Source: Polyangiaceae bacterium (lineage in GTDB: Bacteria; Myxococcota_A; Polyangia; Polyangiales; Polyangiaceae). From it: a stretch of 64,000 nt of DNA. Position 1 is the first letter of the stretch, and every line of letters starts with the position of its first letter. The stretch spans positions 1 to 64,000 of the forward strand of contig JANXOF010000080.1 in NCBI GenBank assembly GCA_025353725.1, written 5' to 3'. This document shows positions 2,205 through 34,388 of this stretch, piece after piece. A model generated the notes under the pieces. The model did not search any database and was not told the origin of the DNA. It saw only the letters and a list, made by a program, of their open reading frames with translations. The position numbers and the translations under genes are program-made.

Positions 2205-2735
2205 ATGTCCGATCCGCCTGTCCGCCTGACGAAAGAGGAGGTTGCCGAAGCCTACGGGCGATACGGCCACCTTGTCCTTCGTCGATGCAGCCGGATCCTT
2301 CGGCGGGATGATGCCGCCGAGGACGCTCTCCAGGAGGTGTTCGTGAGATTGTGGCGATACGGCGACGCGTTTCGAGCTGCGGAGTCGAAGGTCGCGTGGC
2401 TGTACCGCGTCGCCGATCGATGTTGCTTCGACGTTCTCGCACGCGACCGCACACGTCGTGAGGTTCCGTTTGACGAGACGGGGGCCGAGCTGGTCTCCGA
2501 AGGGAGCGACCGGCGCGCGATCGAGGACCGCGAAATTGTGCTCATGTTCCTCAGCCGGTTCGACGATCGAGTGAAAGAGGTTGCGGTCCTGCATTACCTC
2601 GATGGTTTGACTCAGGAGGAAATTGCGGCGGCTACCGGCTGGTCGCGACAAACGGTCGTGAAGAAGCTCGCGTTTCTGGCCGATCGGGCGGAGAAGTTGC
2701 GTGCTGCGCTCCTGTCTACGAGTGGAGCCCCCTGA
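2205..2735 (+). CDS. ECF-type RNA polymerase sigma factor
   Basis: A 176-residue extracytoplasmic-function sigma-70 factor. Region 2 covers about residues 15-75 (RDDAAEDALQEVFVRLWRYG is the core-binding and -10 recognition helix). Region 4 is the C-terminal helix-turn-helix (DGLTQEEIAAATGWSRQTVV, about residues 135-160), which reads the -35 element. There is no region 1 or 3, as expected for the ECF class. The stop codon overlaps the next start by one base (TGATG), so sigma and anti-sigma factor are translationally coupled. By context it should direct transcription of this operon and answer a signal passed through the membrane protein encoded next. Confidence 0.95.
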   Translation: MSDPPVRLTKEEVAEAYGRYGHLVLRRCSRILRRDDAAEDALQEVFVRLWRYGDAFRAAESKVAWLYRVADRCCFDVLARDRTRREVPFDETGAELVSEGSDRRAIEDREIVLMFLSRFDDRVKEVAVLHYLDGLTQEEIAAATGWSRQTVVKKLAFLADRAEKLRAALLSTSGAP

Positions 2736-3460
2736 TGAGTCACCCGAGCAATTTCATCCTCGAACGTTTTAGCGTGAACGATCTCGCCGGACCGAGCGCG
2801 CTTGAGGTGGAGCAGCACATCCGCGCCTGCGATGGCTGCACACAATTCCTTGCTCAGCTCGAAGCCGCGCGCAAAGCACGGCTTGCCGCGGTACCCGCAG
2901 CGCAGTTTGTTGAACAAGTCTCCGCACGCCGCGCCCGTGTCGTACGGCTGGTCGATCACCGCATCGCGCGCCTCGGTGCGGCAGCCATGACGGTCTTGGC
3001 AGCGGCGGCAGCTATTCTTCTCTTCGTCCGACGCCCTGATCACGGCCCGCTCGGAGGGGTCACACTCAAGGGAAGCGGTGTAGCCGTCCACCGAAATCGT
3101 GGTGGCGATGTGCATGCCCTCGCATCCGACGAAACGATCCGCGGTGGCGATGCACTGCGGATCGTTATTACGCAATCCCGCCCTACCCGTGTTGCGGCAT
3201 GGGTTGTCGACGTGCAAGGCCGCATTGACCGCGTTGTCGAAGAAGGTTCAATCGCCCTTCCGAGTGGCGAGTCGGCCCTTCCGGGGAGCCTTGTCGTCGA
3301 CAGCCCGTGTATCGATCTGGAGCTCGTCGTCCTTTTCGGGGTGGAGTCGTTCCAGGACGCCGAGCGGCGTCTCAAGGAGGCCATCCCAGATGGCGCAATC
3401 CCCGAGGGCACTGGATGGGGTCTGCCTGGTGCACTCACACGACGGTTGCGATGCGAGTGA
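2735..3460 (+). CDS. Transmembrane anti-sigma factor with zinc-finger N-terminus
   Basis: A 241-residue partner of the preceding sigma factor. The N-terminal cytoplasmic part holds a zf-HC2-type motif (HIRACDGCTQFL, H-x3-C-x2-C, about residues 28-38), which binds ECF sigma factors in this family. One membrane helix follows at about residues 85-103 (AAMTVLAAAAAILLFV). The periplasmic part, about 135 residues, is beta-rich, with segments such as GSGVAVHRNRGGDVHALAS and GGDALRIVITQS, and resembles the DUF4384/FecR-type sensory domains of myxobacterial anti-sigma factors. The last 10 bp overlap the caspase gene, so the three proteins are probably made together. Confidence 0.85.
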   Translation: MSHPSNFILERFSVNDLAGPSALEVEQHIRACDGCTQFLAQLEAARKARLAAVPAAQFVEQVSARRARVVRLVDHRIARLGAAAMTVLAAAAAILLFVRRPDHGPLGGVTLKGSGVAVHRNRGGDVHALASDETIRGGDALRIVITQSRPTRVAAWVVDVQGRIDRVVEEGSIALPSGESALPGSLVVDSPCIDLELVVLFGVESFQDAERRLKEAIPDGAIPEGTGWGLPGALTRRLRCE

Positions 3461-5043
3461 CGTTCCGTGCGGTCATTTTCGGTGCCGTTTCGCTCCTTGG
3501 GCTGGCTGAAACCGCGCAGGCGACGCCCCCGCCGGCGATAGATGTTGTAGCTGTGCTTGTTGGTGCCAACGTCGGTGGCTCCGATGAAGAACCACTCCGC
3601 TTCGCGGCGTCGGATGCCGTGCGGGTACGCGACCTCCTGACCCAGCTTGGTGAGGTCCGCCCTGGCTACGTGAACCTTGTCGCGGGAGACGGTCCCGACG
3701 TAGTCCTCAGCGCACTCCGCAACGCCCGCCAACAGGCAGCGGCGCTCGCGGGAACGGGGCGCCGCGTCACGCTTGTCTTCTACTACTCGGGGCACGGCGA
3801 TGACGACGCCCTTCACTTCGCCAAAGGGGCGCTGGCACTTCGGGATCTGCGCACGGCGATCGCCGACGTTCCCGCAGACCTCCGCGTGACCATTCTTGAC
3901 TCTTGCCGAACCGGCGGCCGCGCGAAGGGCGTAGCGCGAGGTCCGGCTTTCGATCTCCAGGTCGCGCCAGACTCCCCGCATGGGACCGTAGAACTTCGTG
4001 CGTCGGCGGTCGGGGAGGCGGCCCAGGAATCCGACGAGCTCGGCGGCGCGGTGTTTACGCACTTTCTGGTCTCGGGATTGCGTGGTGGGGCAGACACCGA
4101 TGGCGACGGTCGCGTGACCTTGGCCGAGCTCTACGCGTACACGTACCGAAAAACCCTGCTCAGAACGTCTGCGTCTCCCGTCCTACAACACCCCTCCGTG
4201 CAGATGAACCTTGCCGGTAGCGGTGACGTGGTCCTCACTTCTCCGTCCTCAGCTTCCGCATTTCTTGAGGTGCCACGCGGAGCGGATCGATACCTGGTCT
4301 TCGCACGCCCGAGCGATTCGGCGATGGGAGAGGTGAGCGGAGAAGGGACTGCGCGCCTGGCCCTGCCTACGGGGAAATTTCTTGTGGTTCGCCGCTCGGG
4401 CAGTAACACGAGCGTCGCGTCGGTCGATCTCTCCTGGGGCGGGACGAAGCGTCTGGTCGATAGCGACTTTCGCCCAATGGCGCGCGAAGAACTCGCCAGG
4501 CGTGGGGGCCACATCGAACTGCACCCCCTGCGAGTGGACGCCCGCTTTGGTGGCGAATTCGCGCCCGGCAGTAGCGATGCCCTCGCCCTTCGCGCAGGAG
4601 GTGCGGTCACGTTGGTATCCGGGCACCTGGAGTACGAGTTGGACATGGCGTACGTCGGTGGTCCGTTCTCGTCCGGTGCATTCGACGGAGGCGTGCACTC
4701 GATTGCGGGCGGTCCCAACATCGGCCTCCGTACCTTCTTTGGTCGCCTCACTCTTCTCGCGTTCGTCGGAGGAGAGATTCGCTACTCGTGGGAACACCTC
4801 GCGCGTGTTGACGCGGCCCGTGCCAGCGCCGGCGGATTTGCGGCAACCGAGAATCGGTCCTTTGCGTCCGCCGGACCACGTGCAGGTCTCCGAGTGGCTT
4901 TGGCGCTAGGGGGCGACTGGAGCGCATCATGGACGGGCTCCTTCACTGCACTCTTGCGCAATGAAGCTGGCAAGGACGGAGAGGCTCAGATCGCGCTCTA
5001 CCCGCTCCTCGGAACCACTCTCGCCGTAGGACATGCATTTTAG
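3451..5043 (+). CDS. Secreted caspase-like (C14) protease with C-terminal beta-barrel-like region
   Basis: A 530-residue protein. ATG at 3451 gives a clear signal peptide ending AETAQA at about residue 24. Residues 30-275 form a peptidase C14 (caspase/metacaspase) domain with catalytic His115 in YYSGHGDDD and Cys152 in ILDSCRTGG. A perfect EF-hand-type loop follows the domain (DTDGDGRVTLAE), suggesting calcium binding. A linker of about 90 residues leads to some 160 residues of alternating hydrophobic and polar beta strands rich in Gly and aromatics, ending in a terminal Phe (VGHAF). This is the signature of a BAM-inserted outer-membrane barrel. Seen: signal peptide, catalytic pair, EF loop, terminal Phe. 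Inferred: anchoring in the outer membrane with the protease facing the periplasm or outside. It is the third gene of the ECF operon. Confidence 0.88.
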   Translation: MRVTFRAVIFGAVSLLGLAETAQATPPPAIDVVAVLVGANVGGSDEEPLRFAASDAVRVRDLLTQLGEVRPGYVNLVAGDGPDVVLSALRNARQQAAALAGTGRRVTLVFYYSGHGDDDALHFAKGALALRDLRTAIADVPADLRVTILDSCRTGGRAKGVARGPAFDLQVAPDSPHGTVELRASAVGEAAQESDELGGAVFTHFLVSGLRGGADTDGDGRVTLAELYAYTYRKTLLRTSASPVLQHPSVQMNLAGSGDVVLTSPSSASAFLEVPRGADRYLVFARPSDSAMGEVSGEGTARLALPTGKFLVVRRSGSNTSVASVDLSWGGTKRLVDSDFRPMAREELARRGGHIELHPLRVDARFGGEFAPGSSDALALRAGGAVTLVSGHLEYELDMAYVGGPFSSGAFDGGVHSIAGGPNIGLRTFFGRLTLLAFVGGEIRYSWEHLARVDAARASAGGFAATENRSFASAGPRAGLRVALALGGDWSASWTGSFTALLRNEAGKDGEAQIALYPLLGTTLAVGHAF

Positions 5044-5102
5044 GTTTACACTTTCGGCCGGCCTCCTTGTCTTCGAGGGTGAAACCAACAGAAAGCACCC
5101 CG

Positions 5103-6008
5103 ATGCGAAACTCCTTACCCCTTCTTTTTCCTTGTCTCGCCGCATTTTCGGGCTGCGGAAGCGCAGCGGGACCCAGTTACGAGCCCCCCTACCTGACTCT
5201 GGGAGGAACGATCACGTCGTCGTCGGTCTCGACGCCGGCAACCGTCCGTGTGGCACTGGTTTGGCGGCTCGGCCAATCGTTCCGCGAGGCACAGGAGCTC
5301 GACGTACGCGCCGAATTCCCCGTGAAATTCCGTCTCGACGTGCGGGCTCTCCCCCCCAAAGAGGTCATCGCCTCGATCGATCCATCCAAGACGGCCCCGG
5401 GACGCCCCACCGGCTACGCCTTCGGCACACTCGTTGTTTACGAGGACACCAACGGCAACGGCAAGCTGGATCTCGTTCCTGTTGACGCCACGGCATCGAC
5501 CGATCGGGTCCTGGGCGCGCCGGAAGGGCTCGAAGTCATTTACCTCGAAGGCGGCGGCATTCCTAAGAACCCAAACGCTCCGCCCACGGACGAAGACTTC
5601 GTCGAGCACACGGCGGGCTTCAACCTCGTTGTCGAGCCGACGCGCGTCGATCCCGAGCCGGGGTGCACGTCGTGCGCCCCCACCTTCGTGTCTGCGTGGA
5701 CGCGTCTTCCACTCGACGCGGATCTTTCGGTTGCACTCACGGCCGATCCGCAATTGTCACGCGCGCTCTGCGAACAGACGGGTGGAGAGGGAGCGACAGC
5801 GAGCAGCGCGTGCCAGCCATGCCTTGGTGATGCGTGCAGCCGCTGTTCGATCGCCACGGACGCGAGGGTCACCTGCAACGCCGACAAGACGGCGTTCGTT
5901 GCCTTCTCGTGCACCGCGAACTCGGTCTGTGCTGACCACGTGTGTAAATACATTTCCGGACGTCGTATAGCGACGGACCCGGTCCCCGCAGCCTGGCCCT
6001 GCCCCTAA
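5103..6008 (+). CDS. Lipoprotein with calcium-loop-like motif
   Basis: A 301-residue putative lipoprotein. ATG at 5103 is used because it begins a signal peptide whose lipobox is AFSGC, with lipidated Cys near residue 17. A transthyretin-like beta region follows, containing VVYEDTNGNGKLDLVPVD, a DxNxNGxxD loop seen in many secreted calcium-binding domains. The C-terminal part has several cysteine pairs (CTSC, CQPCLGDACSRC), likely disulfides. I do not recognise a named family. It starts 59 bp after the caspase gene and is followed by a terminator, so it is probably the last gene of the ECF operon and may work with the protease at the cell surface. Confidence 0.8.
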   Translation: MRNSLPLLFPCLAAFSGCGSAAGPSYEPPYLTLGGTITSSSVSTPATVRVALVWRLGQSFREAQELDVRAEFPVKFRLDVRALPPKEVIASIDPSKTAPGRPTGYAFGTLVVYEDTNGNGKLDLVPVDATASTDRVLGAPEGLEVIYLEGGGIPKNPNAPPTDEDFVEHTAGFNLVVEPTRVDPEPGCTSCAPTFVSAWTRLPLDADLSVALTADPQLSRALCEQTGGEGATASSACQPCLGDACSRCSIATDARVTCNADKTAFVAFSCTANSVCADHVCKYISGRRIATDPVPAAWPCP

Positions 6009-33321: not shown

Positions 33322-34388
33322 TCAAGAGGCTAGGCGAGGGGCGCATCTCCGGTTCTCGCCCCAGTCGCCTGCGGTTCGGCCGCACGCTAGGCCAAGCGCG
33401 GCGAGCGAAAGGCCAGCGAGAATGTCGATCAGGTAGTGCCAGCGCAAAAACATGGTTGCTATCATGATTTGCGAAGCCACAAGCCCGAGCCCTGGCCACG
33501 TAAAAACGGAAGATGGCGAGCCTTCGGTGTCGGACAGCAAAGAGCGTGAGGAACGTCGGCGCGGCCGTGTGGAGACTCGGAAAGATGTCTTTTTGGGCGG
33601 CGCCCTCACCAGATTCTACGGATTTGGCTACAAGTCGCCACCAGAGTGCTCCGTCGTGACCGAGTGAGTGATGAAGGCGATCGGCGAGATAAAAGTAGGG
33701 ACCATACGCGAGTACAAAGATGTAAATCACCTGACCCGCACAAAAAAGAAATAGAAAGCCGAAAGCAAATTCCTCCAGCAGTAGGCCTGGTCGGACAAAA
33801 AAGACAAAAGTCACGAGAAAAGCGAGAATCAAAAGTGTAGTAGTTAAAGTAGAAAAACGAAAACCACTCCCTTGTCGCCGGGCGCACAAAACGGTCCCAC
33901 GCCTCAGCAGGCTCGACACCGAAGATAAGGATGTCAAAGCGATAAAGCTTCGCGTCGACGACGCGCTAAGTGGCCGTCGGGAGGACATACTGCAACTCGA
34001 GGAACGAACCCAACACACCCACAATAAGGGATACGCGACGTAGGGTTTCGCGGGCGCGCGAGCGAGTTGGTTTCTTGTGTGCCGCGGCTTGCAAAAGCAC
34101 GTATGAGCCGAGCAGCGGTGCCGTGATGCCCAACGCAAGTGGTCTTCGGGCTCCCGTCCCGATCACGACCGCCGCGAGCAAGGTGACGAGGTAGGCGAAG
34201 ACCATCCAGTCTTCGGCCATTAGTCGATCAGCCGCACGGCTGAGCCAGTCTTCACGGTAAGGGTCGCCAACTCCACCCGCAGGATGCTCTTCGGTTTTGT
34301 GGCGCACTCTAAAAGATACGAAAAACAAAACAAAGGAAAGAGAAGCAAAGAAGCCGTCAACTCTGCTCGGAGGATGGTCCTGCGACAT
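33322..34388 (-). pseudogene. Broken PAP2 (Aur1/Ipt1-type) membrane phosphatase gene
   Basis: The gene can be followed through three frames from ATG at 34388 to the stop at 33322-33324. The first part (SRAADRLMAEDWMVFAYLVT...ELQYVLPTAT) ends in a TAG at 33966-33968. The same frame continues beyond it with VDAKLYRFDILIFGVEPAEA and REWFSFFYFNYY. Near 33831-33842 the frame shifts to LLILAFLVTFVFFVRPG and onward to the phosphatase motif KDIFPSLHTAAP. At the A5 run 33502-33506 it shifts again to FTWPGLGLVASQIM and the final His/Asp motif FLRWHYLIDILAG. Three lesions in one gene argue for a pseudogene, although the homopolymer shift could be a sequencing error. The intact protein would be a polytopic lipid phosphatase or phosphotransferase. 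Confidence 0.8.

Follow-up and report, generated by a model that had tools for sequence, protein, structure and literature searches.

A sigma factor, anti-sigma factor and caspase cassette of Polyangiaceae, with a shared R-x-K-G motif that suggests proteolytic envelope signalling

Gene organization of the locus

The window analysed here covers positions 1 to 64,000 of contig C54 (total length 78,629 bases; GenBank JANXOF010000080.1) in a 6.6-Mb draft genome of a Polyangiaceae bacterium, and the locus under study carries genes for an extracytoplasmic function (ECF) sigma factor (P0001), a membrane anti-sigma factor (P0002) and a secreted caspase-family protease (P0004), with a lipoprotein gene (P0003) alongside (Table 1). 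As a preliminary description of this DNA had stated, the first three genes overlap end to end, by 1 nt and 10 nt as judged from the open reading frames and their translations. The sigma factor scores 73.8 bits against NCBIfam TIGR02937 (cut-off 42.9), and Pfam Sigma70_r2 and Sigma70_r4 are both above cut-off, so that sigma-70 regions 2 and 4 are present. The H-x3-C-x2-C motif attributed to the anti-sigma factor can be read directly in the sequence (H28, C32 and C35), ahead of a transmembrane (TM) stretch at residues 82-98; the Pfam zf-HC2 model gives 15.3 bits, under its cut-off of 22.2. Among 70 members of the anti-sigma family, zf-HC2 is matched at E<=0.01 in 21 and DUF4384 (PF14326), in the periplasmic half, in 16, with P0002 reaching that level for neither. 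The 70-row alignment (A2) has a mean identity of 18% and zero invariant positions, and the positions kept in at least 90% of rows are A91, A92, K112, G113, D139 and D189.

Table 1. Coordinates in the window of the cassette genes and their features
Feature	Position	Strand	Basis
ECF sigma factor P0001, 176 aa	2205..2735	+	Sigma70_r2 and r4, TIGR02937
Anti-sigma factor P0002, 241 aa	2735..3460	+	zinc-binding-type motif, one TM helix, DUF4384-like periplasmic domain
Presumed cut site K112-G113 of anti-sigma factor	3068..3073	+	near-invariant A2 columns
Secreted caspase-family protease P0004, 530 aa, ATG at 3451	3451..5043	+	Peptidase_C14
Signal peptide, residues 1-24 (approximate)	3451..3522	+	helix 6-21 in model; hydrophobic N-terminus
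Caspase domain, residues 27-265	3529..4245	+	AF2 model, structural comparison
Catalytic His115	3793..3795	+	130/131 distinct homologues
Catalytic Cys152	3904..3906	+	130/131 distinct homologues
Presumed self-cleavage site K159-G160, intersubunit linker of caspase	3925..3930	+	linker, conservation
EF-hand-like loop D215-E226, between helices 201-213 and 224-239	4093..4128	+	alignment, model
C-terminal beta domain, residues 379-528, probable outer-membrane barrel	4585..5034	+	model; homologue barrel
Lipoprotein P0003, 301 aa, fourth cassette member, lipobox Cys18	5103..6008	+	relatives beside cassette
TTTACA-N18-GTC promoter-like site, 7 nt before sigma start codon	2171..2197	+	pattern scan
TTTACA-N18-GTC promoter-like site, 31 nt before lipoprotein ATG	5045..5071	+	pattern scan

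The secreted caspase and its C-terminal domain

P0004 matches Peptidase_C14 (PF00656) at 30.1 bits against a cut-off of 21.4, and the NCBIfam model for EACC1-associated caspases (NF047832) gives 64.8 bits, not reaching its cut-off of 140; a search of the Protein Data Bank (PDB) sequences with P0004 and a PHROGs search each returned zero matches. Residue conservation was counted over a set of 131 distinct cassette caspases. H115, D150 and C152 are each kept in 130 of these, in agreement with the catalytic pair named in the preliminary description, and position 55 (Asp in P0004) is Asp or Glu in all 131. A suspected loss of the catalytic cysteine in the closest relatives was rejected, DxC being present in them. 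Secretion, also claimed earlier, is supported by a signal-peptide-like N-terminus in 84 of 85 homologues, scored by a crude hydropathy measure that was also used to choose the start codon. The loop that had been described as an EF-hand, DTDGDGRVTLAE (215-226), is present and conserved (D215 in 129/131, D219 in 123/131, E226 in 129/131), although the Pfam EF-hand models remain under cut-off (E 0.12-0.22); it is called EF-hand-like here. A loop so nearly invariant fits a calcium site; no switch follows from its conservation.

A full-length AlphaFold2 (AF2) model of P0004 was built on a 24-row alignment (A1). The predicted local distance difference test (pLDDT) values of the caspase domain are 78-97 by block in residues 31-150 and 181-260, and structural comparison with VIA finds it most like procaspase-7 (Z 20.4, 200 aligned residues, root mean square deviation 2.5), with MALT1, caspase-3 and metacaspases the top solved folds in Foldseek. 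The segment 156-173, directly after the strand bearing Cys152, has pLDDT <50, as is expected of an intersubunit linker.

The C-terminal part had been described as beta-rich and ending in Phe, and the model agrees, with nine strands of 8-22 residues each in residues 379-528 (block pLDDT 31-66) and Phe530 as the terminal residue; Phe is last in 51 of 85 homologues. The AlphaFold check that had been proposed for this part gave strands in P0004 at a confidence too low to judge a closed barrel, and we therefore folded the C-terminus of a homologue (L047) instead, using its C-terminal 180 residues aligned with nine relatives. It forms a closed barrel of eight strands (pLDDT 89.3, predicted TM score 0.80) that resembles OmpA in Foldseek (9.4e-8), as well as OmpX, NspA and OmpW, and NspA in VIA (Z 17.2 over 151 residues). 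Comparison of C-terminal profiles between caspase clades relates the clade of the window to that of L079 with a probability of 95.8, to that of L047 only weakly (66.9 over 68 columns) and to a third clade at 53.3, and the other three give 0.2-2.6 among themselves; the profiles thus appear to be related only patchily. A C-terminal outer-membrane barrel in this caspase family is supported by the homologue model, and in P0004 itself such a barrel is probable. What stands of the earlier barrel proposal is hence a confident eight-stranded, OmpA-type fold in a relative, with the window's own nine-strand model remaining at low pLDDT.

A widespread myxobacterial cassette

Homologues of the protease were sought in 108 genomes of the family and in a species collection of titled contigs. 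They are present in 52 of the 108 genomes, and the species collection yielded 40 protease loci, the weakest of which are distant caspases; the top two matches among the titled contigs are Labilithrix metagenome-assembled genomes (MAGs). Sixty matches from the family genomes, with E of 2.8e-35 or better, were taken together with their flanking DNA, leaving out G012:C536 and everything weaker. From 87 caspase frames two without a usable start (L055, L131) were dropped to give 85 loci for synteny counts, with a few contigs present in both collections (L033/L124, L034/L117).

The search for the same gene order, which had been suggested as a check, was made on these 85 loci. In 74 of them the anti-sigma gene immediately precedes the caspase gene in the same orientation, giving the order sigma, anti-sigma, caspase, and the two genes overlap by 4 nt in 50 of these 74. 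Seven further loci (L076, L078, L082, L083, L084, L086 and L132) have a variant order with the sigma/anti-sigma pair downstream of the caspase, in most cases with about 0.9 kb between the caspase stop and the sigma frame. The pair is absent beside only four caspases, two of them distant (L056, L057) and two at contig ends (L074, L077), such that it adjoins 81 of 83 cassette-type caspases and the other two are at contig edges. The locus is one copy of a widespread myxobacterial cassette, and a second copy is present on contig C1 of the same genome. At a threshold of E 1e-8, a profile of the anti-sigma factor matches 62 of the 108 family genomes, and a hand count gives 41 whose best E is <1e-15. 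In a phylum-wide sample of 377 genomes, 151 match at E 1e-10, and the best E is <1e-15 in 125 of them, likewise counted by hand. These numbers are rough, because weaker matches often cover no more than the N-terminal domain and only a subset of the candidates in each genome was scored. A cassette of the same type (L043) is found on a public MAG contig titled Klebsiella pneumoniae, which is probably mislabelled or from a mixed bin.

A motif shared by the caspase and the anti-sigma factor

The near-invariant K112-G113 of the anti-sigma factor is 14 residues past its TM helix, and the sequence around it, [TVI]-R-x-K-G, is common to this juxtamembrane segment and to the caspase linker at K159-G160. 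In the caspase, K159-G160 is invariant in alignment A1, and position 159 is Lys in 128 and Arg in 1 of the 131 distinct proteins. We then compared 123 distinct cognate pairs, with positions aligned by profile and with missing or gapped partners and repeats dropped. The presumed P1 residue of the anti-sigma factor is Lys in 114 pairs, Arg in 7 and another residue in 2, one of which is apparently misaligned (L260, with ERAKG just upstream) and the other of which reads PRTSGG (L048 and its copy L226); it is followed by Gly in 118 pairs and by Ala, Ser or Thr in the other 5. The corresponding caspase position is Lys in 121, Arg in 1 and Glu in 1, with Gly next in all 123. Arg is present at P3 in 86 anti-sigma factors and 100 caspases, and the complete R-x-[KR]-small pattern in 85 and 99, respectively. 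The later loci, collected once the motif had been proposed, give 56 distinct pairs, including 8 that overlap with the first set, and here Lys or Arg occupies P1 in 54 of 56 anti-sigma factors and 55 of 56 caspases. A distant sub-family of 16 loci has Arg at caspase position Cys+9 in all 16, and Arg also in the first juxtamembrane basic-small pair of the anti-sigma factor in all 16, preceded by Ala or Ser in 14 caspases and 12 anti-sigma factors; one of these loci (L187) can alternatively be read as RSKG.

A conserved Lys-Gly in a disordered linker near the catalytic cysteine resembles a self-cleavage site, and where the anti-sigma factor leaves the membrane the shared motif resembles a site-1 site. 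The shared motif suggests that the caspase frees the sigma factor by cutting the anti-sigma factor, which, from the R-x-K-G motif in both proteins, would be the likeliest target of the protease; the preliminary description had named the anti-sigma factor as one candidate target. The same motif in both proteins would also be expected if that of the anti-sigma factor were a pseudo-substrate or docking site, through which the anti-sigma factor would hold and inhibit the caspase or would itself be shielded by it, and a protective contact of this kind is described for FoxA and FoxR in cell-surface signalling (PMC11637429). However, a cut bond would account equally well or better for a basic P1 and a small P1', inhibition is required by none of the data, and we consider such a docking role very doubtful.

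Two sets of controls bear on the specificity of the motif. For the phylum control, Pfam PF00656 caspases were collected from 57 genomes, giving 29 new loci of which 25 have a readable motif (L286, L287, L290 and L311 do not). Where an anti-sigma match lies no more than 1.5 kb away, KG is found between Cys+5 and Cys+10 in 9 of 9 caspases; among the 16 caspases lacking such a match it is found in 1, and this exception (L303, G108:C121:55034-55555) is a cassette-type caspase by score (4e-120). Neither a sigma nor an anti-sigma match lies within 1.5 kb of L303, which may represent an orphan or a variant order. For the DUF4384 control, 16 of 30 loci were kept, after removal of six in the wrong frame (L193, L199, L202, L204, L206, L215), of cassette members (L198, L210, L212-L214, L216) and of two with an adjoining sigma match (L209, L218); three of the controls (L200, L207, L211) are close to a weak caspase match. 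None of these DUF4384 proteins is encoded beside a sigma gene, and in the 60 residues that precede the domain R-x-[KR]-small occurs in 1 of 16 (L190) and KG in 1 of 16 (L191). The gene L190 lies on the same contig just past the window (G000:C54:64497-64736; DUF4384 at 3.6e-16), about 58 kb from the cassette; in its 60 residues ahead of the domain R-x-[KR]-small occurs once and KG not at all.

These controls also bear on the proposition that the caspase is an output, in which the sigma factor induces an outer-membrane protease whose substrates are other proteins, foreign or of the envelope, the sigma factor is freed by a different protease, and the K-G of the anti-sigma factor is the structural start of its DUF4384 domain. 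The near absence of the motif from DUF4384 proteins away from sigma genes argues against a structural start, as does its absence from a sigma/anti-sigma/DUF4384 pair that lacks a caspase (L209/L244), and the tolerated changes (Lys to Arg; Gly to Ala, Ser or Thr) are those of a protease site. On the other hand, six orphan anti-sigma genes (L169, L251, L252, L257, L277, L281) keep KG or RG with no adjoining caspase, such that a structural role of the motif is possible, and K-G is present in some distant caspases; furthermore, self-regulated ECF operons often carry effector genes. On balance we think it unlikely, albeit by no means negligible, that the caspase is simply an output.

Points weighing against cleavage

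Several of these observations, together with others, weigh against cleavage of the anti-sigma factor by the caspase. Two of the orphan genes (L257, L277) lack a sigma match too, although all 8 genomes searched, the orphan-bearing ones included, encode cassette-type caspases elsewhere; L240 was removed from the orphans because a caspase lies upstream on the same contig, and L170 and L175 are near contig ends. In the phylum control, RG occurs near the catalytic cysteine in 2 of the 16 caspases without an anti-sigma match (L292, L304), and K-G is present at Cys+9 in 3 of 15 distant caspase frames, mostly from other phyla, so that the linker motif is not confined to the cassette. The switch from Lys to Arg is essentially one deep split in the tree, and its Fisher p of 1.5e-14 is therefore not a real probability; co-variation at P3 gives p 2e-4 over all pairs (Fisher) but p 0.33 in the later pairs alone. 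With a single split at P1 and no P3 association in the later pairs, statistics that ignore descent are not trustworthy. The nearest solved folds are both caspases and MALT1, so that membership of the Lys/Arg-cutting metacaspase/paracaspase subfamily (C14B) is not established, and the window's own barrel model is of low confidence. Finally, an enzyme at the outer membrane must reach a site near the inner membrane, and cleavage itself is inferred from the motif.

The lipoprotein and promoter-like sites

The P0003 lipoprotein is a real member of the cassette: a similar lipoprotein is encoded on the same strand beside 41 of 83 cassettes, upstream of the sigma gene in 38 and directly downstream of the caspase in 3, the window among them, and C18 and G35 are invariant in 22 aligned rows. 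It contains an EF-hand-like loop of its own, DTNGNGKL (5445-5468), that recurs in about half of the cassette relatives, and with similar loops in P0003 and the caspase, two cassette members may bind calcium. Two further lipoproteins of this family lie in tandem on contig C95 (G000:C95:22148-24336), the first broken by a single in-frame stop. The 10 kb examined around them contain no match to a sigma factor, anti-sigma factor or caspase with E better than 0.1.

The preliminary description favoured a calcium-gated protease and offered the lipoprotein as a possible target. The conserved loop and the position of the lipoprotein next to the cassette are in keeping with a calcium-gated enzyme that cuts this or another surface protein. 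However, reading through P0003 reveals neither KG nor RG, which counts against it as a target, and for a near-invariant loop a structural calcium site is at least as good a reading as a switch; we regard this explanation as highly improbable. The lack of KG or RG makes P0003 look more like a regulated output or a partner.

The pattern TTTACA-N16-19-GTC was found by a de novo count of motif pairs upstream of genes and is partly post hoc. It occurs in the window at two plus-strand sites, both of the N18 form and placed before the sigma and lipoprotein genes (Table 1), and at one minus-strand site at 33726. Among 70 other loci, it is present within 1.5 kb upstream of the sigma gene in 9 (L113, L116, L121-L123, L125, L127, L128, L130), and in 7 of these (not L121 or L127) a site is no more than 150 nt from the chosen lipoprotein start; the exact form is missing from the remaining 61, a few of which have near variants. 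Genome-wide, the N18 form has 18 matches against 9 for the reversed pattern, and one of them is 36 nt before the stop-interrupted lipoprotein on C95. Known ECF promoter patterns gave no clear enrichment upstream, relative to a block-shuffled control and with gene starts that are approximate. The TTTACA sites support, without proving, self-regulation of the cassette and control of the lipoproteins by the sigma factor.

Proposed mechanism and relationship to known systems

The proposed cleavage of the anti-sigma factor by the caspase draws on the synteny, the shared motif, the phylum control and the disordered linker around K159. It also draws on the preference of metacaspases and paracaspases, described in PMC4357240, for cutting after Arg or Lys, together with the kept D55 and D150. 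The same paper links Cys92, Asp95, Ser156 and Asp211 of TbMCA2 to substrate binding or activity, and by position D55 and D150 would correspond to Asp95 and Asp211.

We propose that the locus is a self-contained envelope-signalling cassette in which the caspase cuts the anti-sigma factor to free the sigma factor, a proposal that we hold to be evenly poised between right and wrong. The caspase would be exported, with its C-terminal barrel in the outer membrane and its protease domain in the periplasm, an architecture drawn from sequence and from the confident model of a homologue, with the localisation presumed. The anti-sigma factor would span the inner membrane, with the sigma factor held on the cytoplasmic side and the DUF4384-like domain exposed in the periplasm. 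In response to an envelope signal the caspase, having matured by self-cleavage of its linker after K159, would cut the anti-sigma factor after K112, just outside the membrane, and a site-2 protease and cytoplasmic proteases would then finish the anti-sigma factor. Peptidase_M50 matches are present in the genome (best 5.6e-52), such that a site-2 protease is available and may act at this locus. The freed sigma factor would turn on its own operon and the lipoprotein gene through the TTTACA-N18-GTC sites. Signalling would then run much as in DegS-RseA or FecA-FecR-FecI, an outer-membrane caspase standing where those systems have their protease or transducer. In a variant that we consider distinctly unlikely, the caspase is a sentinel, in which the folded barrel keeps the protease away from the inner membrane, and failed insertion or a changed envelope gap would allow the untethered caspase to cut the anti-sigma factor after R-x-K and free the sigma factor. 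A bacterial caspase would then be a dedicated signalling protease with its genetically encoded substrate alongside, a pairing found in about a third of the genomes sampled from the phylum.

Metacaspase operons with sigma-70 genes were described in 2012 for Myxococcus, Anaeromyxobacter, Haliangium and Sorangium (PMC3501461), with autolysis proposed as a possible metacaspase role. These predicted operons, of a metacaspase and a sigma factor, are very probably the same cassette, as matched by description rather than gene by gene, and the passages of that paper that concern them make no mention of an anti-sigma factor, barrel, lipoprotein or cut site. In searches of the open-licence literature, a scope that most subscription journals fall outside, no other title or abstract described the cassette, and no account of its anti-sigma factor, barrel, lipoprotein or cut motif came up.

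In the DegS-RseA-RseP-sigmaE pathway, an envelope signal leads to a site-1 cut of a membrane anti-sigma factor by DegS, an inner-membrane serine protease, and then to the action of a site-2 protease; the cassette instead has a cysteine protease, which is encoded within the operon of the sigma factor and is probably anchored in the outer membrane. The FecI-FecR-FecA system consists of a sigma factor, a membrane anti-sigma factor and an outer-membrane protein with a periplasmic N-terminal signalling part. The cassette would have the same arrangement as this system and as FoxI-FoxR-FoxA, in which outer-membrane FoxA contacts FoxR across the periplasm and its signalling domain shields FoxR (PMC11637429). 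It would differ in having a probable eight-stranded barrel and a caspase in place of a TonB-dependent receptor and signalling domain, and in the DUF4384-like periplasmic domain of its anti-sigma factor compared with FecR and FoxR. A FecA-type identity was not supported: at E<=0.01, Pfam finds C14 in 24 of 24 proteins (P0004 and 23 homologues) and otherwise only C13 (4) and C25 (3).

Type III-E CRISPR offers a biochemical likeness, in that the caspase-family protease Csx29 (CHAT) cuts Csx30 and so relieves the ECF-like CASP-sigma, just as a caspase would here cut the inhibitor of an ECF sigma factor. That system is an RNA-guided complex, and secretion or a membrane anchor is not described in the sections of PMC10028731 that concern it, which also report that alanine scanning of Csx30 found zero residues essential for the cut. 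Identity of the cassette with the CRISPR CASP-sigma system is unsupported, a PADLOC scan of P0001, P0002 and P0004 only having found no Csx protein and weak CasR and caspase matches. The ECF54 group has CHAT, subtilase or carboxypeptidase genes in its context, and there too a caspase-fold protein has been proposed to control an ECF sigma factor by proteolysis (PMC8999054).

Protease-controlled ECF signalling is thus known, and what would be new here is a caspase at the outer membrane in that role. If this is correct, myxobacterial caspases would be transcription-signalling proteases, instead of or besides death enzymes, and a new route of signalling from the outer membrane to a sigma factor would stand alongside those of DegS and FecA. 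To our knowledge the substrates of secreted bacterial caspases are largely unknown, and the sequence data point to one neighbour and one bond (K112-G113), with one self-cleavage bond (K159-G160).

Apart from the cassette, the contig starts with the C-terminal part of an IS66-family transposase at 11-409 (DDE_Tnp_IS66, 6.1e-15).

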